31,373 nt of DNA from a virus. The notes beneath the pieces were generated by a model. That model did no database searches and had not been told where the DNA came from. It saw nothing but the letters and a program-made list of their open reading frames with translations. Positions 18,567 through 30,403 of the stretch are shown one piece after another. The position numbers and the translations under genes are program-made. The stretch spans positions 1 to 31,373 of the IMG/VR virus record IMGVR_UViG_3300025626_000080. One strand, 5' to 3'. Position 1 is the first letter of the stretch. The number at the start of each line of letters is the position of its first letter.

Positions 18567-21500
18567 ATGGAAAACAAAGATTTAGAGTTACTTAAAAACG
18601 AAATACTAGGCGTAGAAGAACTTGTTGAAGAACAACCCGTGGAAAAGACAGAGGATCCGGAGACAACAACTGCCCCGACTGCGGATCCAGAAAGTGGGGC
18701 ATCCAGCTTGGAAACTACTTCATCGGAGTTAGCAGATCTTAAGAAAGAATTAGTTACTGATCCTCCAAAAAAATACAAGCACGTTCCTATAGAAAATCTT
18801 ATAGATAAAGATATAGAGACTTTACAAACTTCTTATCCTAATTTTAAAATAAACAAAACATTTATTGGTGGAGCTATAGAAGTAATTAATATACAGACAG
18901 GTGAAAAGCAAGAATTTTTTGGACCACAAAGCACAGGTGTTACTGGAAGAAACATAGAAGGCTTAAGCAAAGACAAAGATCAAGAATATATTGATTTTAA
19001 AAACTTTATAGAAGCTAATGATGATGTATCTGAAGAGTCTAAATACATACATCAAATGACAGGTTTAATTCCTGAAGACAATGAGTATAAAGGATTTGAA
19101 TACGAAGGCACTACAAAAAACCCTTATTCTTTAATAAAAAGAACAGAACAGAAACTTAACCTAGCTTTAGATGAATATGCTGAATCAATAAGTTTTGGTT
19201 TACCTAACTCAAAAGGAGAAAGAAAACAAACGTATGAGCTTTTGATGAATAAAAAAGCAGATTACAATAGCTTAAGTCAAGAAGCTAAAAACCAAATTAA
19301 TGCTTCTGTTATTAACATGGTTAAAAAAGATGAATTTTTAAATATAACAGACGACGATGTTAAATCTATATTAACTAACAATAAATTTATAAGTAATATA
19401 AATTATAATAGAGATCAAGCAGTTAGTGAGCAGATGGTTGATATTGTTGATATAACTTTTGATTTAAGTAAAGATGCTGATAAGCAAGAATTTATTGATT
19501 TTAAAAAGAGAAAAGAAAATGAATTTACAGCAAATCTTAATGCACAGCAGAAAGCTAGACTAAAGCAAATTGAAAACCTTAACAAACAAAGAGATAGTGA
19601 AGACTTAACACTAGAAGAAACAGTAGATTTAAAAAACGCACCTGAAAAATTAGAAACATTATTTAACAATGATGGTTCTTTTAATGGAGCAACAGAAGCA
19701 GAGCAACAGACATATACACTTCAACAGCAGATGGAGTATTTAATAGCTTCTTTAAGTTCAGACTTTGACAACAGAACAACAAAAGAAAAGTTTAAAGACA
19801 ACTACGACATAGAGGTTTTACAGTTAATGAAGAACGAGCAGATAGGTAACAAGAGGTTTATTGATATATCTCCTGCTTTATTGAACAATCTTAAAAGCAA
19901 AGCTTCTTTAAACGAGTTACCTATAGCTATAGTATCTGAACTTGGATCTTTTTTAGCTACTATAGGTGACGATGAAAAAACAAGAATAAGTTATTCAAAA
20001 CTTGCCAAGTATCAAATAAGCCCAGAGCTACTCAAAAAAGATCAAGCTTTATTAGGAGTTGAAGAAGAAGATTTTAGAGGTTATACTGCTTGGCTTGATG
20101 ATAAGAAACAACACGAGCAGGCTATGTTAGGCGCTTTTAATGTTATAAACTTAGAGCAAATGCCTGATAGAAACGAAGAGTTTAATCCTTTTGTTAACTT
20201 TTTTCAAGAAACTATTAAAGCTTTTCAAACTGGTACTTTTTATGGTGCTAGAGACACAGAGTATTCTTCTAATTTTAATAGAGCATTATTTGGTAGTTAC
20301 AGCCCTGTTGAGACGTTAGACGCTGTCGAAGCGTCTTTTAATAGTTATAATGAAAGAAATCCTGATTCAGAAATTAAGCTAAGCCCAAAACAAAAAGAAA
20401 ACTTTAAACAAGGTATAGCTGAATTAACATCCACTGGTTTAGGTGGTATGGTTCCTTTTTTAATGGAAATGTTTGTAGTTGGAGCAGCAACAGAGGGAGT
20501 AGGTGTATTTAGAAGCTTTGGTAAAGTTGGTCAAGTTATAGATGCTATGTTACTAGAAGAACTTAAGTTTGCGGCAGTGCCTAGTACACCACTAGAACCA
20601 GGCGCAGGTGCAACATTTACAGGCGCTGGTATGTTGGCTAGTAAAATACCAATTGGCCCTTTTAAAACTTACTTTACAGGACTAAGACCTTTTTATGAAA
20701 AAGTAATTAAAGCAGGTTGGGTTGGAGCTGCATCATCACAAGCTAACAAGTTTGTTAGAGTTTTTGCAGATGACTTACTAGGACACACTCCTTGGAGAAC
20801 TGCTTTTGAAAACAACTATGGTGACTTGCTATCAGGCGATGATGAAGCGTTTAACGAATTTACTAAAGAAACATTGGTAGATGCTTTTATATTTGGAATA
20901 TCAGGTGTATCACATTTAAGAAAAGGTGATTTTCAATCTGTAAGCAAAAAGAAAAAAGTACTAAGTAGCTTGATTGATAAAAACAGTAAGGAGCTTAATG
21001 CTATAAGAGAAGAATTTTCTTTAGATAATTCAGAATTTAAAAAGATGTCTGGCGAAGAGTTTATAGAAGCATTACAAAATGCAGATTTATCTAAAGCACA
21101 ACAAGAAAGATTTACTAAGCTTCAAGAGTCTTTTGGCTTACAAACAATGTTATCTCAGAATATACAGCATGATATTAAGTTTGAAGATTATAACAACATA
21201 GATCTTTTTGAAAAGAATTTAGCTAACCCAGTAACTAAAAGATTAACGGCTAACGCCGAAGCTGCCGGAGCAAAAGCCCCAAAGTTTAAATTTGAATTTA
21301 CAGATGCAAATAACCCTGTATTAGCTGGCGCCCCTGCCAAAGTAATAGCAAAAGGTGGAGAATATAGAGTTGTATTTTCTAGGGAAAGTTACAATGCTGG
21401 AAGAGCTGGTCATGAGTTGCAGCATTTAGTAGACTTAGAATACTATAGATTAAATCCAGAAGCTAAAGAAAGCATTAGAAGAAAAGCTGGACAAGAAGAA

Positions 21501-24500
21501 ATTTTACTTTCAAAAGTTGATAATATAAAAGTAACTGTAGGAGATAAAACTACTAATGAATCGCTTATAAAACTTTTACAAAAAATATATCCTGAGCTTA
21601 CAAAGGCTGAAATATTAGAAAAAGAATATAAAACTAACTTAATAGAATTATTCAGTGACAAATCAAATTTGTTAATAGAAAATCCAATAGAAGCTTCTAC
21701 ATGGCTTGGTGAATTAAAAAGAGACTTTTTAGATTTAAAAAGATCGATGTTTGGTTCAGATGCAAAGCTAGTAGAAATTAGAACTGTTGAAGATCTAATG
21801 ATTCAAATAAACAATTTAACTAGAGATCTTAATAGAGGTACAGAAATTAATGATAGTACTCTTGATATAATGGAAGCTCTCTCTAAAACTAAGTTAAGTG
21901 AAATAGGTCTTACTAAATTAAATAAAGACGCAGAGTCAATAAAAACAGAAATTGAGTTAGCTGAAAAGAAAGCGCCAAAAGATTTTGAAGGAGATATAGT
22001 TGTTCCAACGCAGTTAGAATCTAAATCAGTACTAGAAAACCTAGAAAAAGAAGTAAGAGAAAAAGGAGAGTTTAAAGGTAAAGACGAAAAAGGTAATGAT
22101 CAATATACTCCTGATCCGTCTACTGTAAGTAAAATACTTGCAGAAACTTATTATAAAGCAGAGGTCATGGCCAACAACCCAGAGATTTGGATTAGACATG
22201 GTTCTTTAAGAATGCCTAAAGACCAACAGGTTCGTGATGACGTTGCAGGTGAATTAATGGTAGAATTGGTTAAATATGCTAACAGGTATGACGGAAGAGG
22301 CAGTGTTGATGGTTACTTAAACTGGGCTTTAAATAAGCAATGGGTAAATGCTCTTAATCGTGCTGGGGTTTATGACAATGCAGGTAAGGTTGAGTTTGAT
22401 GAGAATAAAAATTATAACAAAGAGCTAGGAGGAGAAGATAGTTGGCGAGATGTAGAAACGCAAGCAACTGAAATTAGAACTCCAAATATAATAACTAATA
22501 GAACGCCTAAAACAGTTAGTAAAGCTATTGAAGGAGGTTATTATAATAAAGATCTATACAACAACGTAGCTAAAAGCATAAGCACTGGTTCAGATATTTC
22601 TACTAATTATAAAGATACTTTTCCAAGATCTGGCATAATAGAAATGATAGAGCCTAGTTTAGTTGGTAAAATAGTAGATCAAAAAACAGGTCAAGTAAAT
22701 ACTTCAGCAACAGAGATAGGTAAAAAGTTAGCTACTAAAGTTTTTGATAAATTAGGTATAAACAAAGAAGTAGAAAATGCCGATCAAATACTAACTGGTA
22801 TAATAGAAATATTACCATCTAGAAGTTCTGTTCCTTATAATGAAGTAATCACAGCTAGCGGTGAATCTATAGTAGCTAGCGATGCTCAAGCTGGATTATC
22901 TTCCGGTATACAAACCAAATTATTAGAGTCTCCTCTGTATGAGAGAAAAGGTAGAGAAAAAGATCCTCAAGGTAATCCTATATATGAAAAAATTAAACAA
23001 GAAGATTTAACTCCAGAAAAATTACAAGAAATAAGAGATTATTTTAACACGCCTAATACTAGAAACAACTCTACTAAACTTAGAAACTTAATTTATCAAA
23101 TAGATAAAGCTGTAACTAATAGCATAGAAGTAAGTGTTGCTAAAGAAAAAATACTAAAAGACGCTTTTGAAATAGGTGATATGATGGGTGCCACTAGTCT
23201 AGAGCTTAACGCTGCTGGAATTTCAGAATCAATTAGAGAAGAACTAGCTGATGCAGGTTATGACTTTACTGTTCAAGATCTTAATAAGAAAGTAAACAAC
23301 TTTGTCTTATCAAATAGTGAAAATACCGAAGATCTTGACTTTTTGATTAAGACAGCTGTTATAAAACAAATAAAAATTGAGAAAGACGGAGATGGTTTTA
23401 TAAAAGTAACAAAAGAAAAAATGCCTGATTTTGATGCGCCTTTATCTTTTTCTTCTAAAAAACTAACTAAAGAACAAGCAGAAGCAGCTAGAGACGAACA
23501 CGCTGAACAGTTTATTAAGTTCGTGGAGTCTCCATTTTTTGGTAATGTATTTAATGTTGGAAAATTTCCTGGAAGCAAACAAACACTACCGTTTTTATTA
23601 GCTAAATTTAACGATGCTAAAAGAACTGTTGGTAATGCTGGAAGCGAAAGAGGTAAAAAAGTTCTTAAAGCTTTAGAAAACACTAAAGAAATATCTGAAG
23701 ATATATTATTACAAGACTCTGAGTTTGCTAATGCTATAAAGCAACTTAATAAAGATATAAAAGAAAACAATATAGAAGCTGCTAATTCTATAGTAGGAGC
23801 TAATACTAAGACACAAGATATATTTAACATTGTTACTGGTTTAAAAAATGGACAGGTAGCAAAAGTTATACAGCTAGAAGGTAGAGATGGTAAAACCATA
23901 CTGTGGAATCCAGATGGTAAGTTTGAGTTTAAACAAACTGAAGGAGTTGAAATAGTAAAAGGTAGCACTAAGCTTGTTAAAGAAAACTTAATAAATAAAG
24001 TATACGATCCTAAAATAGCTAAGGCTTTAAAAAATTATGACTTTGTTATTAACAGTGCTTTACAGAAGTGGTATTTGTCAGTTCCTAAAAAAGAAAAAGC
24101 AGCAGCTGATAGGTTTTTATACAGGCATTTTCAAATGACTACTAATACTACATTTTCAGATAGAGCTTATGCTCCTCTCATAGGTGCCACTCTTAAAGAC
24201 GGCATTGATGAAGGTCATAAAAAAGGTGAGCATGTTATGGATGCTTCTATGAATACTGCTTTAAAATTTCAAGCTATAAAAAATGGTAAATATAATAAGG
24301 CTTTTCATGATTTAATTTCTTCTGAATATTTTCAACTACTTACTGACAAACAAGTTTCTGATGTGATGGACAAAGAAATAGGTCCAAACAATACAGCTCA
24401 GATATTTAAAATGATTAAAGCAGAGCCTGAAAATATATATAACTTTGCAGAAGGTGAATACTATGATCAGACAATAGCTAAAGAGTACATAAAAAGAGAT

Positions 24501-27500
24501 GGTAATATAACAGCAAGAGAGTACTTTAATAGCAATGATATAGTAGGTGCGATACTTAAAAATAAAGCTTATACTACTTATTTAAATCCAGATAGAGGTA
24601 TAGAGAATATATTAAAACAAAAAGGTGAAACCTTTGCTCAGCAAGATCGTAGTTCTGTTTCTAAAAATATGGCTAGAGCTAGAAAGAAAACTGCTGAAAT
24701 AGAGCAACACGCTTTAGATCAAGGCTATAACCTAGTTGTTGATGGCACTGGAGCTGGCTACAATGCAACTGCTGCGAGAGCTAAAAAATATACAGATTTT
24801 CGAGGTGAAAATGTCCCTGACGGCTATGAAGTTTCTATGGTTTTTATTAACACATCTTTAGAAACATCTCTTGCGAGAAATGCTAGAAGAGTAGAAAGAA
24901 GTTTAGAACCTTTTATAGTAGAAAGAACTTGGAAACAAACAGAAGCAAATAGAAGAAAATACAAAAAACTATTTGGTAAAAACTATTTTGAGTTAGATAA
25001 CAACAATTTAAAACAAGGTGAAACACCTCAAGACTTTATAGATAGAGTTAATGCTAAGTTTGCTATAGAAGGAAAGAAAGTAGTTGTAATGATGGCTGGT
25101 AGTCCAGGTTCTGGTAAATCTACAGTTGTTGAAGATTTAAGTTTAAATGCTGAAAGCTTAAATAGACTTAGTAATCAAAAGCTAATTAATAGAGGTAGAG
25201 ACCCAAAAGAAGTTGTTGAATGTTCTATTGGAGACTTTGATGATAATGTAGCTTTTACTGATTGTAAAGTTTTAGCTAAAATGGGAGAGATAATTATAGA
25301 GCTCGATGCTCAAGATTTTAACACCCGTAAAGAAGCTTTAGAAAAAGATGGTTACACTATGAGCTACGAACAGTTTGATCAAGTTATAGGAGCAGAATCA
25401 GGTCCTTCTTGGAGAAAGTGGACTGAAGATTATAAAAGAATAGGTAGTGAAGACATGTTTATTATGACTGCTAGAGCTGCGGGTTCTCAAGAAGCTATAT
25501 TTAATTACTTAAAACAAAAAGGTTACGAGATACCTATAGAAAATATTATAACAACTGAAGGTACAGCTTTTGTAGATGGTCCTTTGTCTGGTGAAAACAA
25601 AAAAGCAGCTGAGATACCTAATTTTTATATTGGTGAATACAATGGAAAACAATATAATAAATTAAACTTTAGCGATGATTATTTTCCTAACACCGACGCT
25701 GTTAAGTTTGTAACTAACCAACTAGATATAACTGGAGACGTCTATACTAGCTTAGCTTCTAAAAATATAAGTAAAGAGTTTAATAGCTATATAGATAATG
25801 TTTTTAAAATAGATCCAAACACATCCTACTCTCTTGCTTCTGCTAAAAACTTAGGCGCATCTAAAGATGGTGTGAGATTTCTTTCTTACGGCATGGAAGA
25901 TTTTAAAGGTTTGTTATATGCTACACTAGATAAAGGAGTAGTAGGTGAAAGACAGTTTAAGTTCTATGAAGAAACATTGTTAGATACATATGAGAGAGGT
26001 GTACAAGCTTTTGAAATAGATATGGCTAAAGTTAATAATAGTTTTAAAATAGCTAAGAAAACAGCACCTAAAAACTTAAATGAAAAAGTAGGAGAAACTA
26101 CTTTTACTAATCAAGATGCTGTAAGAGTTTACTTATGGAAACAATCTGGAGAAAAAATACCTGGTATAAGCGATGCAGAAATAAATAAGCTTGTTAATCA
26201 AGTAGAATCTGATCCTCAGTTACAATCTTTTGCTGGAAAAATACTAGAAGCTACAGGTGAAGGAACATATGGTAAACCAACTGAAACCTGGAACACAGGT
26301 AATATAGCTATGGATCTTATGGAGATAGGTAAAACAGTAAAAAGAAAAAAATATCTTGCAGAATTTTTAAATAATAGAGATCAAATATTTAATGAAGATA
26401 ATAAAAATAAATTAAGAGCAAATTTAGGCAACAAATACATGGATGCTTTAGAAAACATGTTTGCTCGTATGGAAGCTGGAACAAATAGATTAGATATAGG
26501 TACAAAAGTTGGTAACAGGATGTTAGATATTATAAATAATACTAACGCAGTTACAATGACTCTAAACACTAGATCTGCTTTATTACAAACTATATCTGCT
26601 GCTAACTACGTCAACTGGAGTTTTAATAATCCTTTAAAAGCTACTGCAGCATTTGCTAATATACCTCAGTTTGCTAAAGATTATATTACTCTTATGAACG
26701 ATCCATTTCTAACTGAAAGAAGAGGTGGTAATAAAATAAATATCAATGAAGCTGAAATTGCTGCTGCTGCTAAGAAAAATGGTTATCAAGGCATGTTATC
26801 TTACCTGCATGATAAAGGCTATGTTATGACTAAGATGGCTGATAGCTTTGCAATATCTTTTGGTGGTGCAAGTTTCTATAGAAATAGAATAAACGACTTG
26901 ATGAGCCGTGAAAAAATGAGTGAATCAGACGCGGCTGCTCAAGCTAGACTAGAGTGGGTTAAGCTTGCTAGAGAATCTCAACAATCTGGAGATCCTTCAA
27001 AAATAGGTGCTGATCAAGCTAGCACACCTGGTAGGATTATGTTAGCATTTGCTAATACACCTGCGCAATACTTAAGACTACAAGCTAGAGCAGCACAAGA
27101 TCTTAAAAATGGAAGAGGTGATACTAAGGCTAACGTGAGTAAAATATTATATTACGGTTTTGTTCAAAACCTAGCATTCAATGCTCTTCAACAAGCTTTA
27201 TTTATGGCAGATGAAGACAGCATAACAGAAAAACAAAAGAAAACAGCAATGGGTATGCTTGATAGTTATGCTAGAGGCTTTGGAATAGGAGGTAATGCAT
27301 TTGTAGTTGGTAAAAACATAATGTTAGATCTTGTTGAAAGAAGTGAAAGAAACAATCCTGAATATATAGATGCAGTTCAAAAGCTAACTCAACTATCTCC
27401 TGGTATAAATAGTAGATTTTCAAAGCTTAAATCTGCTGCTTATGTTTATGAAAACAAAGTAGAAGAAATGCCTGGACCAGTTTCTTTTAGCAACCCTTTA

Positions 27501-27788
27501 TTACAGGTTACAACTAACATAGTTGAAGGAGTTGCTGGAATATCACTAGAGAGGTTAAGAAAAAAAGCGCAAAATTTAGCAGATGCAACGGATGAAGAGA
27601 ATGACTGGCTAACTAGAGCTGCCTTATTAACCGGTTATCCTAAATGGCAACTAGTTGATATGAAAAAAGACTGGGAAAAACAGAATGCAAAAACAGGTTT
27701 AGAAGAAAGAAAGAAACAAAGAGAAAGTTTCTTCGGAGGAGGAACAAGTGATTCTGAAAACAAAGATAGAAGTAACTTTGGATTTTAA
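18567..27788 (+). CDS. Giant multidomain virion/ejection protein (3073 aa)
   Basis: A 3073-residue protein, the last of the virion cluster. Visible in order: acidic, Pro/Thr/Ser-rich disordered N-terminus (about 15-80); charged helical region (80-560); hydrophobic, membrane-prone segments (about 620-730, with GLGGMVPFLMEMFVVGAA); zincin motif HELQH at 949-953 with a later NLIELF acidic site; a sigma-region-2-like patch (about 1220-1270); charged helices; a zeta-toxin/polynucleotide-kinase-like half (about 2030-2170, DGTG at 2059, then ARNARRVERSLEPFIVERTW); a P-loop GSPGSGKST at 2178-2186; a HAD-like domain (DFDDNV from 2223, MTAR at 2300-2303, SDD at 2369-2371); and a C-terminal segment (about 2660-2880) with SQQSGDPSKIG and NTPAQYLRLQARA that I recognise from many giant phage proteins. 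The start is ATG at 18567. It is likely ejected with the DNA. The enzymatic roles are inferred from motifs, not known. Confidence 0.7.
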   Translation: MENKDLELLKNEILGVEELVEEQPVEKTEDPETTTAPTADPESGASSLETTSSELADLKKELVTDPPKKYKHVPIENLIDKDIETLQTSYPNFKINKTFIGGAIEVINIQTGEKQEFFGPQSTGVTGRNIEGLSKDKDQEYIDFKNFIEANDDVSEESKYIHQMTGLIPEDNEYKGFEYEGTTKNPYSLIKRTEQKLNLALDEYAESISFGLPNSKGERKQTYELLMNKKADYNSLSQEAKNQINASVINMVKKDEFLNITDDDVKSILTNNKFISNINYNRDQAVSEQMVDIVDITFDLSKDADKQEFIDFKKRKENEFTANLNAQQKARLKQIENLNKQRDSEDLTLEETVDLKNAPEKLETLFNNDGSFNGATEAEQQTYTLQQQMEYLIASLSSDFDNRTTKEKFKDNYDIEVLQLMKNEQIGNKRFIDISPALLNNLKSKASLNELPIAIVSELGSFLATIGDDEKTRISYSKLAKYQISPELLKKDQALLGVEEEDFRGYTAWLDDKKQHEQAMLGAFNVINLEQMPDRNEEFNPFVNFFQETIKAFQTGTFYGARDTEYSSNFNRALFGSYSPVETLDAVEASFNSYNERNPDSEIKLSPKQKENFKQGIAELTSTGLGGMVPFLMEMFVVGAATEGVGVFRSFGKVGQVIDAMLLEELKFAAVPSTPLEPGAGATFTGAGMLASKIPIGPFKTYFTGLRPFYEKVIKAGWVGAASSQANKFVRVFADDLLGHTPWRTAFENNYGDLLSGDDEAFNEFTKETLVDAFIFGISGVSHLRKGDFQSVSKKKKVLSSLIDKNSKELNAIREEFSLDNSEFKKMSGEEFIEALQNADLSKAQQERFTKLQESFGLQTMLSQNIQHDIKFEDYNNIDLFEKNLANPVTKRLTANAEAAGAKAPKFKFEFTDANNPVLAGAPAKVIAKGGEYRVVFSRESYNAGRAGHELQHLVDLEYYRLNPEAKESIRRKAGQEEILLSKVDNIKVTVGDKTTNESLIKLLQKIYPELTKAEILEKEYKTNLIELFSDKSNLLIENPIEASTWLGELKRDFLDLKRSMFGSDAKLVEIRTVEDLMIQINNLTRDLNRGTEINDSTLDIMEALSKTKLSEIGLTKLNKDAESIKTEIELAEKKAPKDFEGDIVVPTQLESKSVLENLEKEVREKGEFKGKDEKGNDQYTPDPSTVSKILAETYYKAEVMANNPEIWIRHGSLRMPKDQQVRDDVAGELMVELVKYANRYDGRGSVDGYLNWALNKQWVNALNRAGVYDNAGKVEFDENKNYNKELGGEDSWRDVETQATEIRTPNIITNRTPKTVSKAIEGGYYNKDLYNNVAKSISTGSDISTNYKDTFPRSGIIEMIEPSLVGKIVDQKTGQVNTSATEIGKKLATKVFDKLGINKEVENADQILTGIIEILPSRSSVPYNEVITASGESIVASDAQAGLSSGIQTKLLESPLYERKGREKDPQGNPIYEKIKQEDLTPEKLQEIRDYFNTPNTRNNSTKLRNLIYQIDKAVTNSIEVSVAKEKILKDAFEIGDMMGATSLELNAAGISESIREELADAGYDFTVQDLNKKVNNFVLSNSENTEDLDFLIKTAVIKQIKIEKDGDGFIKVTKEKMPDFDAPLSFSSKKLTKEQAEAARDEHAEQFIKFVESPFFGNVFNVGKFPGSKQTLPFLLAKFNDAKRTVGNAGSERGKKVLKALENTKEISEDILLQDSEFANAIKQLNKDIKENNIEAANSIVGANTKTQDIFNIVTGLKNGQVAKVIQLEGRDGKTILWNPDGKFEFKQTEGVEIVKGSTKLVKENLINKVYDPKIAKALKNYDFVINSALQKWYLSVPKKEKAAADRFLYRHFQMTTNTTFSDRAYAPLIGATLKDGIDEGHKKGEHVMDASMNTALKFQAIKNGKYNKAFHDLISSEYFQLLTDKQVSDVMDKEIGPNNTAQIFKMIKAEPENIYNFAEGEYYDQTIAKEYIKRDGNITAREYFNSNDIVGAILKNKAYTTYLNPDRGIENILKQKGETFAQQDRSSVSKNMARARKKTAEIEQHALDQGYNLVVDGTGAGYNATAARAKKYTDFRGENVPDGYEVSMVFINTSLETSLARNARRVERSLEPFIVERTWKQTEANRRKYKKLFGKNYFELDNNNLKQGETPQDFIDRVNAKFAIEGKKVVVMMAGSPGSGKSTVVEDLSLNAESLNRLSNQKLINRGRDPKEVVECSIGDFDDNVAFTDCKVLAKMGEIIIELDAQDFNTRKEALEKDGYTMSYEQFDQVIGAESGPSWRKWTEDYKRIGSEDMFIMTARAAGSQEAIFNYLKQKGYEIPIENIITTEGTAFVDGPLSGENKKAAEIPNFYIGEYNGKQYNKLNFSDDYFPNTDAVKFVTNQLDITGDVYTSLASKNISKEFNSYIDNVFKIDPNTSYSLASAKNLGASKDGVRFLSYGMEDFKGLLYATLDKGVVGERQFKFYEETLLDTYERGVQAFEIDMAKVNNSFKIAKKTAPKNLNEKVGETTFTNQDAVRVYLWKQSGEKIPGISDAEINKLVNQVESDPQLQSFAGKILEATGEGTYGKPTETWNTGNIAMDLMEIGKTVKRKKYLAEFLNNRDQIFNEDNKNKLRANLGNKYMDALENMFARMEAGTNRLDIGTKVGNRMLDIINNTNAVTMTLNTRSALLQTISAANYVNWSFNNPLKATAAFANIPQFAKDYITLMNDPFLTERRGGNKININEAEIAAAAKKNGYQGMLSYLHDKGYVMTKMADSFAISFGGASFYRNRINDLMSREKMSESDAAAQARLEWVKLARESQQSGDPSKIGADQASTPGRIMLAFANTPAQYLRLQARAAQDLKNGRGDTKANVSKILYYGFVQNLAFNALQQALFMADEDSITEKQKKTAMGMLDSYARGFGIGGNAFVVGKNIMLDLVERSERNNPEYIDAVQKLTQLSPGINSRFSKLKSAAYVYENKVEEMPGPVSFSNPLLQVTTNIVEGVAGISLERLRKKAQNLADATDEENDWLTRAALLTGYPKWQLVDMKKDWEKQNAKTGLEERKKQRESFFGGGTSDSENKDRSNFGF

Positions 27789-27839
27789 AAATAAGGAACA
27801 TAAAAAAACTGGGCACCATACCCAAAGTTCCTGTAACCA

Positions 27840-27872
27840 AAAAAGGGGAGGTCATTACGACTTCCCCTTTTT
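27840..27872. terminator. Bidirectional terminator between convergent gene clusters
   Basis: A 14-bp stem (27840-27853 with 27859-27872, one G:U pair) with a 5-base loop ATTAC. It has an A run before and a T run after (poly-U in both directions). It lies 51 nt after the giant gene's stop and just past the end of the minus-strand operon, so it can end transcription from both sides. Confidence 0.88.
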
Positions 27873-27876
27873 ATAT

Positions 27877-27918
27877 TTAGCACCATGGGCAAAATCCGCC
27901 CGGACATCCGTCACACAT
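27877..27918 (-). CDS. Possible 13-residue four-cysteine micropeptide
   Basis: Starts at ATG 27918 and reads MCDGCPGGFCPWC, ending in TAA at 27877-27879. The cysteines follow C-x2-C-x4-C-x2-C, the spacing of a small metal knuckle; the second pair, CPWC, resembles a thioredoxin-type CxxC. It lies 3 nt after and in frame with the TGA of the 51-residue membrane ORF, and 4 nt before the operon terminator. Thirteen residues is far below usual gene length and ATG ORFs of this size are frequent by chance, so translation is unproven. Four cysteines in twelve residues is the only reason to list it. Confidence 0.3.
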   Translation of the reverse strand: MCDGCPGGFCPWC

Positions 27919-27921
27919 AAT

Positions 27922-28077
27922 TCATATTTTAATAGTTATACCTATTGACACTATGAAAGCGCCGCTTGCTATTGCAAGTGTGTTTGCATTAAAGTTTGGC
28001 TTTTGTTTATGCCAAATCATATTTGTACCAGCAAATGTCATCATGCCAATACCACCTATTACAGCTAGTCTTTTCAT
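27922..28077 (-). CDS. Small membrane protein, 51 aa
   Basis: Start ATG at 28077, stop TGA at 27922-27924. The start overlaps the TGA of the upstream gene as ATGA, the classic arrangement for translational coupling, which supports it as a real gene. The protein has two likely membrane helices: residues 3-22 (RLAVIGGIGMMTFAGTNMIW) and about 31-49 (NTLAIASGAFIVSIGITI), joined by a short basic/polar loop (HKQKPNFNA). I do not recognise a family. Given neighbours (lipoprotein, another membrane protein) a role in the host envelope is possible: lysis, a spanin-like or holin-like accessory, or exclusion of other phages. None of these can be shown from the sequence. Confidence 0.6.
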   Translation of the reverse strand: MKRLAVIGGIGMMTFAGTNMIWHKQKPNFNANTLAIASGAFIVSIGITIKI

Positions 28078-28391
28078 TTTAATTTTAATATTGTATTTAA
28101 ATTAGAATATATTATTCCTATTAATATTATAGAACAATATATAACAGGCTTTTGTAAATCAGTTTCTATAACTAAAGTAAATATACTTAAGAATAATAAC
28201 TTAGCAGCCATGCTGCCATACATTAAACCTACACCTGTTTGTTTTGCTTTTAAAAAAATAGTTATAACTACTTTGTTTATAGCTAGCATAATACCTGTAG
28301 CTAATAAACCGTAAATAAAAGATTCTATCAAATTAATTATAATTAGAATATGAACAATAACCTGCAGAAAAAGTATCAGGAATATTAACAT
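28074..28391 (-). CDS. Small polytopic membrane protein, 105 aa
   Basis: Start ATG at 28391 gives 105 residues with three or four membrane helices: about 3-20, 24-45 (SFIYGLLATGIMLAINKVV), 58-75 and 83-99 (VIYCSIILIGIIYSNLN). This start overlaps the lipoprotein gene by 59 nt, exactly the overlap the lipoprotein gene has with the RNR gene. A TTG at 28331, directly after the lipoprotein stop, is an alternative start that gives about 85 residues and three helices. The stop is TGA, overlapping the next ATG. Size and hydrophobicity would suit a holin or an ATP-synthase-I-like protein, but I see no diagnostic motif. It forms a membrane-protein cluster with its neighbours. Confidence 0.6.
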   Translation of the reverse strand: MLIFLILFLQVIVHILIIINLIESFIYGLLATGIMLAINKVVITIFLKAKQTGVGLMYGSMAAKLLFLSIFTLVIETDLQKPVIYCSIILIGIIYSNLNTILKLK

Positions 28392-28599
28392 AGTTAATTA
28401 CTCCGTCTTTTTTAGCTGCCCAATGATTTGAGTAAACACTATCGTTACACCCACACACTGGCATCCAATATAATGGATGAGTATCTAGCTCACAGGACGT
28501 AGAGTTATCTACATCCTGCTTACAAGGTTTTTCTTTTTTATTACACGATTTCACAAGCACCACCAGCGCAAGCAAGCTCGCCAGATAAATCTGTTTCAT
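28333..28599 (-). CDS. Kazal-like lipoprotein
   Basis: An 88-residue protein from ATG 28599 (a TTG two codons upstream at 28605 is a weaker choice). The N-terminus is a lipoprotein signal peptide: MKQIYLASLLALVVLVKSC, with the lipid-accepting Cys at 19 in a relaxed, Bacteroidetes-like lipobox (VKSC) followed by Asn-Lys-Lys-Glu. The mature part has a Kazal-type inhibitor pattern of the Bacteroidetes type, C-x9-C-x12-PVCGCNDSVYSNHWAAKKDG then GYC. The conserved Cys after SN in that family is replaced by Trp here, so one disulfide is probably lost. Kazal domains inhibit serine proteases, but reactive-site activity is not assured. It would sit in the host envelope, perhaps excluding other phages or protecting against proteases. 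Its first 59 nt overprint the RNR tail. Confidence 0.65.
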   Translation of the reverse strand: MKQIYLASLLALVVLVKSCNKKEKPCKQDVDNSTSCELDTHPLYWMPVCGCNDSVYSNHWAAKKDGVINYVNIPDTFSAGYCSYSNYN

Positions 28600-30403
28600 C
28601 TTCAACTTCTGTTATTTTAGTTAGATCTATATCAGTCAATGACTTCATCATTTCTTTATACTGTGATGATTTTATATCTTCAAAAGGAGCTTGAGTATAA
28701 GTACCACCATCATAAGGTAGGACAGATAGCCCGTTATAATAGTCCCTATTGTCCCACATCCATTTACCAGCTTTATCCCACTCTTCTTTTTTCAAACTAA
28801 CAGTAGCTGAAACATTATGAGTATTACTACCTCGCTTATGGCCAGGTTGTACCCACTCAGTTGCTACTCTTTTTATACGTTCAAGTAAATCAAATGGTGA
28901 TTCAGTTCTAAGTATAGATCCTTTAGGTGCTTTTTGTGGTATACTAATAACAGCAGTGTCATGAGGTCTGAAATATTCGTCTTCAATTAATTCAGGGTGG
29001 TTTTCAATTAAGTATTTATACATACTCTCGTTTTTACCAACTCTAACTCTACGCACATAATAATCATTATGCCATGCATGAATACCAGATGAAGTTCCTA
29101 ACGCCAGAGATGTTGTCCCAGCAGGCTTCACGGTTGTGCATCTTGCAGCAGATTTAATCCCTATTTGTTTTGCTATCTTTTTGTTTTCCCACACTACTAT
29201 ATCTGCAGCGGCCTTCATATCCAACTGCAGCACAGCGGCAGAGCCTATTCCTGTCATTGATACACCTATAAGGGCGTCCTTCTCTGTCGTATCTTTCCAT
29301 ATGTCTCTTAAATAATGAAAGTCAGTATAACCAGCTTGTAGTGTACCTATAAATGAAGCAACTCTACATCTTTCGTTAAAATCATCTTGATCTACTAAAT
29401 CACTTGCATTTACTTCACATAGATTACAAAACTGATATGGTCTTAAAGCTATTTCACAGCAAGGATTTGTTCCCCAGTCTTTATCATTGTTAAAATAAAT
29501 ACCTGGCTCACCTGATCCTGATAACTCAACACGCTTCCAGAGATCCATAAAAAATTCTTTACTTATCTTATGTCTCATAAGTACAGCTGAATTATTAGCT
29601 CTACCTCTTTGTGGTGCTTCTTCCCACCAGTGTCCAGACTTACAACCTATCATTGCTTCGTCATCTGCTGAAAACAAACTAATTAAAGCTGCTCTACGTA
29701 TACCACCGGCTAACACAGCATCTGCAATATGACATACAATATCATGAGCTTGTATTGTAGAAAGCTTATTACCGTCTTCAACATTTGATAATATACCAGC
29801 TACTTTTACTAAGCACTCTTTTAAAGGTTGTGGACCTGGTGCTTTACCACCAGACGTTACTAATTGAGCTCCCTTTGGTCTAATATCAGAATAATCAAAC
29901 ATTAACTTAGATGATCTCTTAGGACCCATATAAGACTTAATTAAAACTTTAACTGCATCAGCCCAACCTTCAATACTATCTCCAATTAAATGCCTTCGTG
30001 TTCTTTTGCCATAAGGTTGATTAACTGCTGGCAATTTATTTACATGATGGTTTTGTACAGAATATCCTACACCAGTACCACCAAGCAATAAAAACATTAT
30101 TTCATTAAAAGACTCAATGCTATCAATAGGTAAATAAGCACAATTATAAACTCTATTAGGCGAGATCTCAATCGGCTTACCTCCGAACTGTAGCGATCGC
30201 ATAGATGGTAGAACTTTCTTTTCATATACAAACTTATAAGCAGCTTCAATGTCGTCAGTAAGATCAGGATATTTTTTGATATGCATGTTCTTGTTTCTAG
30301 TAACTAGCTCTTCCCATGTTTCTCTTCTGTTTAATTCTGGCACATATTTAGCATACTTCATATAAACAGTAATATCACTTAGTATCTTGTTGCTTAACTC
30401 CAT
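28541..30403 (-). CDS. Class II (adenosylcobalamin-dependent) ribonucleotide reductase, monomeric
   Basis: 620 residues, converting ribonucleotides to deoxyribonucleotides with a B12-generated thiyl radical, which frees the phage from oxygen and from host RNR supply. Key residues are visible: Cys88 in YNCAY and Cys326 in FCNLCE as the redox pair, and NPCCE at 313-317 with Asn313, thiyl Cys315 and Glu317. The spacing 315 to 326 is that of Lactobacillus RTPR (408 to 419). The C-terminal swinging pair is Cys612 and Cys617 in CAGGAC. It is shorter than the Lactobacillus enzyme (about 740 residues), so an allosteric insertion may be reduced. The start at ATG 30403 overlaps the upstream gene by 29 nt and the end overlaps the lipoprotein start. 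Class II single-chain RNRs are frequent in marine phages. Confidence 0.93.
   Translation of the reverse strand: MELSNKILSDITVYMKYAKYVPELNRRETWEELVTRNKNMHIKKYPDLTDDIEAAYKFVYEKKVLPSMRSLQFGGKPIEISPNRVYNCAYLPIDSIESFNEIMFLLLGGTGVGYSVQNHHVNKLPAVNQPYGKRTRRHLIGDSIEGWADAVKVLIKSYMGPKRSSKLMFDYSDIRPKGAQLVTSGGKAPGPQPLKECLVKVAGILSNVEDGNKLSTIQAHDIVCHIADAVLAGGIRRAALISLFSADDEAMIGCKSGHWWEEAPQRGRANNSAVLMRHKISKEFFMDLWKRVELSGSGEPGIYFNNDKDWGTNPCCEIALRPYQFCNLCEVNASDLVDQDDFNERCRVASFIGTLQAGYTDFHYLRDIWKDTTEKDALIGVSMTGIGSAAVLQLDMKAAADIVVWENKKIAKQIGIKSAARCTTVKPAGTTSLALGTSSGIHAWHNDYYVRRVRVGKNESMYKYLIENHPELIEDEYFRPHDTAVISIPQKAPKGSILRTESPFDLLERIKRVATEWVQPGHKRGSNTHNVSATVSLKKEEWDKAGKWMWDNRDYYNGLSVLPYDGGTYTQAPFEDIKSSQYKEMMKSLTDIDLTKITEVEDETDLSGELACAGGACEIV

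Follow-up and report, generated by a model that had tools for sequence, protein, structure and literature searches.

Can the 3′ end of a gene for a metabolic enzyme also encode, one base out of frame, the secretion signal of a second protein? This question is raised by a 31-kb virus record, analysed here over its full length of 31,373 nt (the window), where a minus-strand, leftward block of genes at the right end includes the gene for a phage-type class II (B12-dependent) ribonucleotide reductase (RNR) of 620 aa (28541..30403, minus strand; phrog_367, PF21995, PF02867). Class membership is indicated by family profile matches together with a C-terminal Cys pair, both of which are present. The protein matches phrog_367 over its full length (E=3.6e-133), the RNR-II insertion domain PF21995 and the barrel PF02867 are both above cut-off, and the TIGR02505 score of 271.9 bits lies under the equivalog cut-off of 340. 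The gene ends with the redox tail DLSGELACAGGACEIV (Cys-x4-Cys; 28544..28591, minus strand), which is kept in nearly all relatives and is directly followed by the stop codon TAA at 28541-28543; its last codons are GAT TTA TCT GGC GAG CTT GCT TGC GCT GGT GGT GCT TGT GAA ATC GTG TAA. In the +1 frame relative to the RNR, a lipoprotein-like ORF of 88 aa (28333..28599, minus strand) runs from an ATG at 28597-28599 to a stop at 28333, with a TTG two codons upstream (28605) as an alternative start. It begins with ATG AAA CAG ATT TAT CTG GCG AGC TTG CTT GCG CTG GTG GTG CTT GTG AAA TCG TGT, that is MKQIYLASLLALVVLVKSC, and continues for 69 more codons past the Cys. The signal-peptide segment MKQIYLASLLALVVLVKS (28546..28599, minus strand) is located wholly within the DNA of the RNR tail, and the overlap between both ORFs measures exactly 59 nt (28541-28599). 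The original prediction that an RNR tail and a signal-peptide-like start occupy the same 59 nt is thus confirmed by the coordinates and by both frames, and so is the claim that the putative lipid-accepting Cys codon TGT (28543..28545, minus strand) overlaps the RNR stop, with which it has the single base T28543 in common.

The hydrophobicity of the second frame comes almost automatically, because the GCT, GGT and TGT codons (Ala/Gly/Cys) of the ACAGGACEI tail read as CTG, GTG and CTT (Leu/Val) in +1. Unrelated RNR tails often give LVLVEHVKLCN, VLEVLVKSCN or LVQVGLVKSCN in this frame with no gene behind, which indicates that hydrophobicity and a Cys at the stop are cheap. These tails favour a rival explanation, a coincidence in which the hydrophobic frame of the window would be a by-product of the ACAGGACE codons and the 70 following codons an untranslated or degenerate insert. 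We regard such a coincidence as rather unlikely. When the tail amino acids were fixed and the codon usage of the window was applied, about 6% of synonymous tails were open in +1 and about 0.8% were both open and had a hydropathy of at least 2.5. The maximum over 11 residues was 3.13 in the window versus a median of 1.7 among open synonymous tails. Further, in sequence of equal composition a run of 68 or more open codons arises with a probability of 0.26%, which speaks against coincidence for the 70 further open codons. The GC-richer codons of the tail, which had been taken as a mark of constraint from two frames, do not bear that meaning: tail GC is 0.49 in the window and ranges over 0.44-0.49 in seven relatives that lack this lipoprotein, and GC3 is 0.26 versus 0.11-0.26. 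These GC-matched tails rule out dual coding as the cause, and the GC content of the tail stems from its Ala, Gly and Cys residues.

Comparison with other genomes drew on 80 RNR relatives and on further loci. The closest relatives, clade A, comprise L001-L004 and L211-L215. L001-L004, which are the nearest by RNR (92-83% amino acid identity), retain the tail, are interrupted by stops in +1 and lack the lipoprotein, and their RNR stop overlaps the start of an ORF of 51-55 aa. In L211-L215, which were found via the downstream membrane ORF, the order is RNR, an ORF starting with MIESF, and then the 51-55 aa ORF. The RNR tree places the window within clade A (support 1.0 with L001-L003, L211 and L212), as its only member with an open +1 frame. 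Thus, a retained tail without a continuous signal frame, the finding named beforehand as refuting dual coding, is what the nearest relatives of the window display, and since they are closed in +1 and have no lipoprotein, the overlap in the window must be recent. This distribution also favours coincidence. Compared with the gene order of clade A, the window has a single addition, the mature lipoprotein stretch of about 208 nt. The view that the insert consisted of two ORFs was rejected, as the membrane ORF has long been adjacent to the RNR and only the mature lipoprotein was inserted.

That membrane ORF (MIESF; 28074..28391, minus strand) has homologues whose start overlaps the RNR stop as ATGA. 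In the window the usual ATG reads TTG at 28331, displaced by the mature lipoprotein stretch, or else the ORF starts at an ATG at 28391. The latter, located within the 3′ end of the lipoprotein ORF, would add a hydrophobic out-of-frame leader, MLIFLILFLQVIVHILIIIN (28331-28391, minus strand), as a second overlap of this kind. Next comes a membrane ORF of 51 aa (MKRLAVIGG...; 27922..28077, minus strand), which directly follows the RNR in L001-L004. Near the end of the RNR block lies a tiny Cys-rich ORF of 11-15 aa, MCDGCPGGFCPWC in the window (27877-27918, minus strand) and MCPYCNGYCGSC, MCELCGGFCGGC and MCPLCLGGICEYCKS in relatives; it also occurs in L001-L004, L009, L207, L208, L210-L212, L218 and L219. 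Its pattern did not appear in any of 1920 shuffled versions of the downstream sequences, and it is possibly a conserved metal-binding or redox micropeptide. A DNA element, GGTTACAGGAACTTTGGGTATGGTGCCC (27811-27836), is nearly invariant in the window and 18 related loci and far more conserved than its flanks; it is located just beyond a terminator-like hairpin between convergent gene blocks, and an Rfam search of 27700-28700, including this element, gave nothing near threshold. On the plus strand, 18567-27788 encodes a predicted protein of 3073 aa with P-loop/zeta-toxin-like matches (AAA_33, Zeta_toxin, E about 2e-9).

A different situation is found in the sister clade B (L005, L007, L009, L207-L210, L216, L218-L220 and L222), where the +1 frame is open and hydrophobic. 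The phages of this related group are marine. The frame is open from the ATG in all members, the exception being L219, whose 5′ half is lost, and the encoded signals follow the pattern M[LY]S..K, then ..LI..VSLL.LVVLV. The mature parts behind it have about 167 aa, 15-20 aa, or are missing altogether. All five extended forms carry LPSC, LSSC or LNSC after the hydrophobic core, and three of them are short (L216, LSSC; L218, LNSC; L222, LSSC), with related forms in L218 and L222 (LNSCSLQEGVCRDQLYQST and LSSCSVQAGVCRADLYQSA). In L005, L009, L207, L208 and L220 the frame stops just before the Cys, which in L005, L009 and L208 leaves Cys-less forms of 27-28 aa. Since many members end before the Cys, the frame persists where no lipoprotein follows, a point that weighs against the dual-coding reading.

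If the second frame is maintained, synonymous change in the overlap should be reduced, as had been proposed for relatives in general. Most clade B loci were fetched by a pattern requiring open, hydrophobic tails, and the comparison was therefore centred on L005, L007 and L009, which came from an unconditioned search. In this trio synonymous identity in the overlap was 0.90 versus 0.74 for amino acid-matched codons elsewhere (P=0.008), and for ten clade B members, at codons outside the search pattern, it was 0.875 versus 0.738 expected (P=0.02). No such excess was seen in clade A without the window (0.69 versus 0.71 expected) or in fifteen other relatives (0.55 versus 0.54 expected). The proposed reduction therefore holds for clade B and fails for clade A; as judged from these alignments, synonymous codons of the overlap are conserved only where the +1 frame is open. 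Exchange of tails by recombination, rather than selection, could also account for the reduced synonymous change within clade B.

A further, independent case comes from L209 and L210, reached through tail DNA identical to the last codons of the window. Here the same +1 frame opens ORFs of 193 and 192 aa, MLSK..TTLILVVSLLALVVLVKL[PS]SC/KKI, which start with M-L-S-K inside the RNR tail and extend about 168 codons beyond the RNR stop; inspection of the sequence showed that, downstream of that stop, this frame has no further start codon close to the Cys. The mature parts are 62% identical, with a dN of 0.28 versus a dS of 1.8, a ratio characteristic of a protein under purifying selection. That an identical arrangement carries a protein shown to be under selection weighs against coincidence in the window. 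The protein has no Pfam or PHROG family match, and a structure model from the two sequences was too poor for a fold search (mean pLDDT 41.8). Homologues with signal peptides of their own were found in three further contigs and in a phage assembly, LR756504, and their signals end in MQKRNKKLCLIFLIYILIS/CSKI (L224), MKKFFICMFSFLS/CSKI (L226), ..FLFTS/CKKI (L227) and MKLKLLLLFIMIISTS/C (LR756504), with the Cys at the same position as in L209 and L210. The L224 homologue is located immediately after the RNR, and the RNR-tail frame forms a separate ORF of 49 aa whose signal ends in LSSC. Because these homologues have ordinary signal peptides and the same Cys, the RNR-tail peptide appears to stand in for a conventional signal.

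How did the window, a member of clade A, come by an open frame? Of 18 synonymous codons in its tail, no more than 6 are shared with the closest relative, where 0.71 was expected as a fraction (P=0.001), so that in the window itself conservation is lower, not higher, in the tail codons than in the remainder of the gene. The last 15 RNR codons are nearest to clade B genomes and the upstream codons to clade A, with a less clear affinity for codons 560-600. Although the pattern-fetched loci inflate the resemblance of the tail to clade B, the unconditioned L009 is still among the best matches. Clade-B-like last codons most likely fit a recombination event within the conserved tail that would have brought in the mature domain; the alternative is convergent selection for a signal peptide.

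The mature segment of the window (70 aa, CNKKEKPCKQDVDNSTSCELDTHPLYWMPVCGCNDSVYSNHWAAKKDGVINYVN...; 28336..28545, minus strand), located between the RNR and the next gene, is absent from the closest relatives and unrelated to the mature part of L209 and L210. Its codon score is above all 342 off-frame windows and below all 114 genuine in-frame windows, which gives intermediate support for coding. No homologue was found in viral and genome contigs by peptide-pattern scans (one of them with a narrow pattern), in phages or in 50 related contigs, and plasmids gave matches only at E 2-7. With no homologue and a codon score below that of real genes, a combination that counts in favour of coincidence, the reality of the mature part rests on one sequence. 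This sequence is Cys-rich, lipoprotein-like and includes a Kazal-like motif, PVCGCNDSVYSN (28426..28461, minus strand), features that speak against coincidence. The best PDB sequence match is the Kazal inhibitor 3pis (E=0.3), below Pfam thresholds. Five of six Cys align with a clear Kazal protein of L203, NHW replacing NxC, and in phmmer this pair beat all 20,000 shuffles, a partly circular comparison since L203 was fetched by the motif of the window itself. Membership of the Kazal family was rejected, given that the Kazal_1 and Kazal_2 Pfam thresholds failed and only five of six Cys are present; the mature part may be called weakly Kazal-like. Its single-sequence structure model was too poor for a fold search (mean pLDDT 42). 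Separately, the phage contigs L202-L205 code for a protein with a Kazal domain (Kazal_1 E=7e-8) that is secreted and, in three of the four, extends into a C-terminal segment similar to a Bacteroidota sorting domain.

Whether the product would be lipidated depends on the residues around the Cys. Classical lipoboxes avoid a charged residue such as Lys at -2. In the window, a positively charged n-region (MKQ) is followed by the hydrophobic core IYLASLLALVVLV, and the lipobox reads V-K-S-C with Lys at -2, so that the description of a complete signal peptide was right for n-region and core and too strong for the lipobox. L210, L216 and L222 have L-S-S-C, but with a Lys 4-6 residues before the Cys. 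A Lys or Arg directly after the core is imposed on every such signal by the conserved Cys-Glu (TGY GAR) of the RNR, and for this reason lipidation of the predicted lipoprotein is not assured. The segment might then be an uncleaved N-terminal inner-membrane anchor with an unmodified Cys, a reading that agrees with Lys on both sides of the core and at -2 in the window, and with the Cys-less forms of L005, L009 and L208, which would be simple membrane peptides. It is at odds with the ordinary lipoprotein signals, Cys in the same place, of the L209/L210 homologues, and with the LPSC, LSSC or LNSC after the core in all five extended clade B forms. We consider an anchor unlikely; it competes with the lipidation step only, and its probability overlaps that of dual coding. 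As for initiation, Shine-Dalgarno sequences are missing from the main genes on the plus strand of the window, as they are in Bacteroidota (PMC3155529), which makes an internal AUG start without a ribosome-binding site plausible in the presumed host. Ribosomal frameshifting from the RNR into +1, giving a minor RNR-lipoprotein fusion without redox tail, is highly improbable: the frames are adjacent and overlapping and +1 opens only just before the tail, but the ATG lies at most five codons from the upstream stop in the window and in all extended clade B members, and export would not be expected of a signal peptide that is attached to a cytosolic enzyme of 600 aa.

Taken together, the two frames, their phylogenetic distribution, the synonymous conservation in clade B, the selection on L209/L210 and the homologues with stand-alone signal peptides make it probable that the 59-nt segment is dual-coding, an RNR tail and a lipoprotein secretion signal, maintained in clade B and gained by the window through recombination. 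Frame 0 would provide the C-terminal Cys pair of the RNR, and the +1 frame, from the internal ATG (28599), a secretion signal whose mature part lies beyond the RNR stop. The tail would suit this use by accident, GCT-GGT-GGT-GCT-TGT being read as Leu/Val, and the sister clade would maintain the frame with interchangeable mature parts. In the window phage, recombination inside the conserved tail most likely introduced the clade-B-like last codons along with the Kazal-like domain. Its lipoprotein would be translated from the internal ATG, exported and lipidated, and would likely act at the envelope during infection, e.g. in host-surface modification or superinfection exclusion. The claimed dual coding of two functional ends is accordingly supported for clade B, with its open frame, synonymous constraint and selected mature proteins that have no possible start outside the RNR tail, and needs to be qualified for the window, where the overlap is young. 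As for the broader proposition that the RNR redox tail is a maintained, reusable out-of-frame signal donor, with lipoproteins swapped by tail recombination and synonymous codons restrained by selection on +1, we see the chances as evenly balanced.

As a rule, each overprinted gene is argued on its own and from a single sequence. Here, the tail constitutes a natural experiment, with closed-frame relatives, open frames with no, short or long passengers, and a passenger with its own signal elsewhere. It allows direct tests of how an unused frame turns into a signal peptide and of how far this constrains the tail of an essential enzyme. In the open-access literature we found no paper describing an RNR/lipoprotein overlap. 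Judging by this literature, an enzyme redox tail as overlapping partner, one tail as repeated signal donor for unrelated mature parts, and one protein family with and without the overlap are new.

The nearest known systems are the two-component spanins, with 182 embedded and 228 overlapped among 528 systems, and overlapped and separated forms within one family (PMC6139136). As in Rz/Rz1 and P2-type overlapped spanins, a phage lipoprotein starts out of frame, often +1, in an upstream gene (PMC6139136), and overlapped and separated forms coexist, here L209/L210 versus L224. Such lipoproteins may escape gene callers, a problem also reported for o-spanins (PMC6139136). In spanins the upstream partner is the i-spanin, which is a partner in function too, whereas the overlapping partner at this locus, when examined as a possible o-spanin system, is the redox tail of a metabolic enzyme, the RNR, and mature parts are exchanged. 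The RNR itself resembles phage class II enzymes of the NrdJ type (PMC6459318), being B12-type with a C-terminal Cys pair, and is ordinary apart from the second role of its 3′ end. Like Kazal inhibitors (PF00050/PF07648), the mature part has the motif PVCGCxxxxYxN, and five of six Cys line up with those of L203, but it gives no Pfam hit even at a limit of E=10, and the Cys after YxN is Trp or absent. Finally, as in de novo overprinted genes (PMC4683798), a new coding function arises in the alternative frame of an old gene; unlike in these, only the signal peptide would be overprinted, and the mature domains would arrive ready-made downstream.
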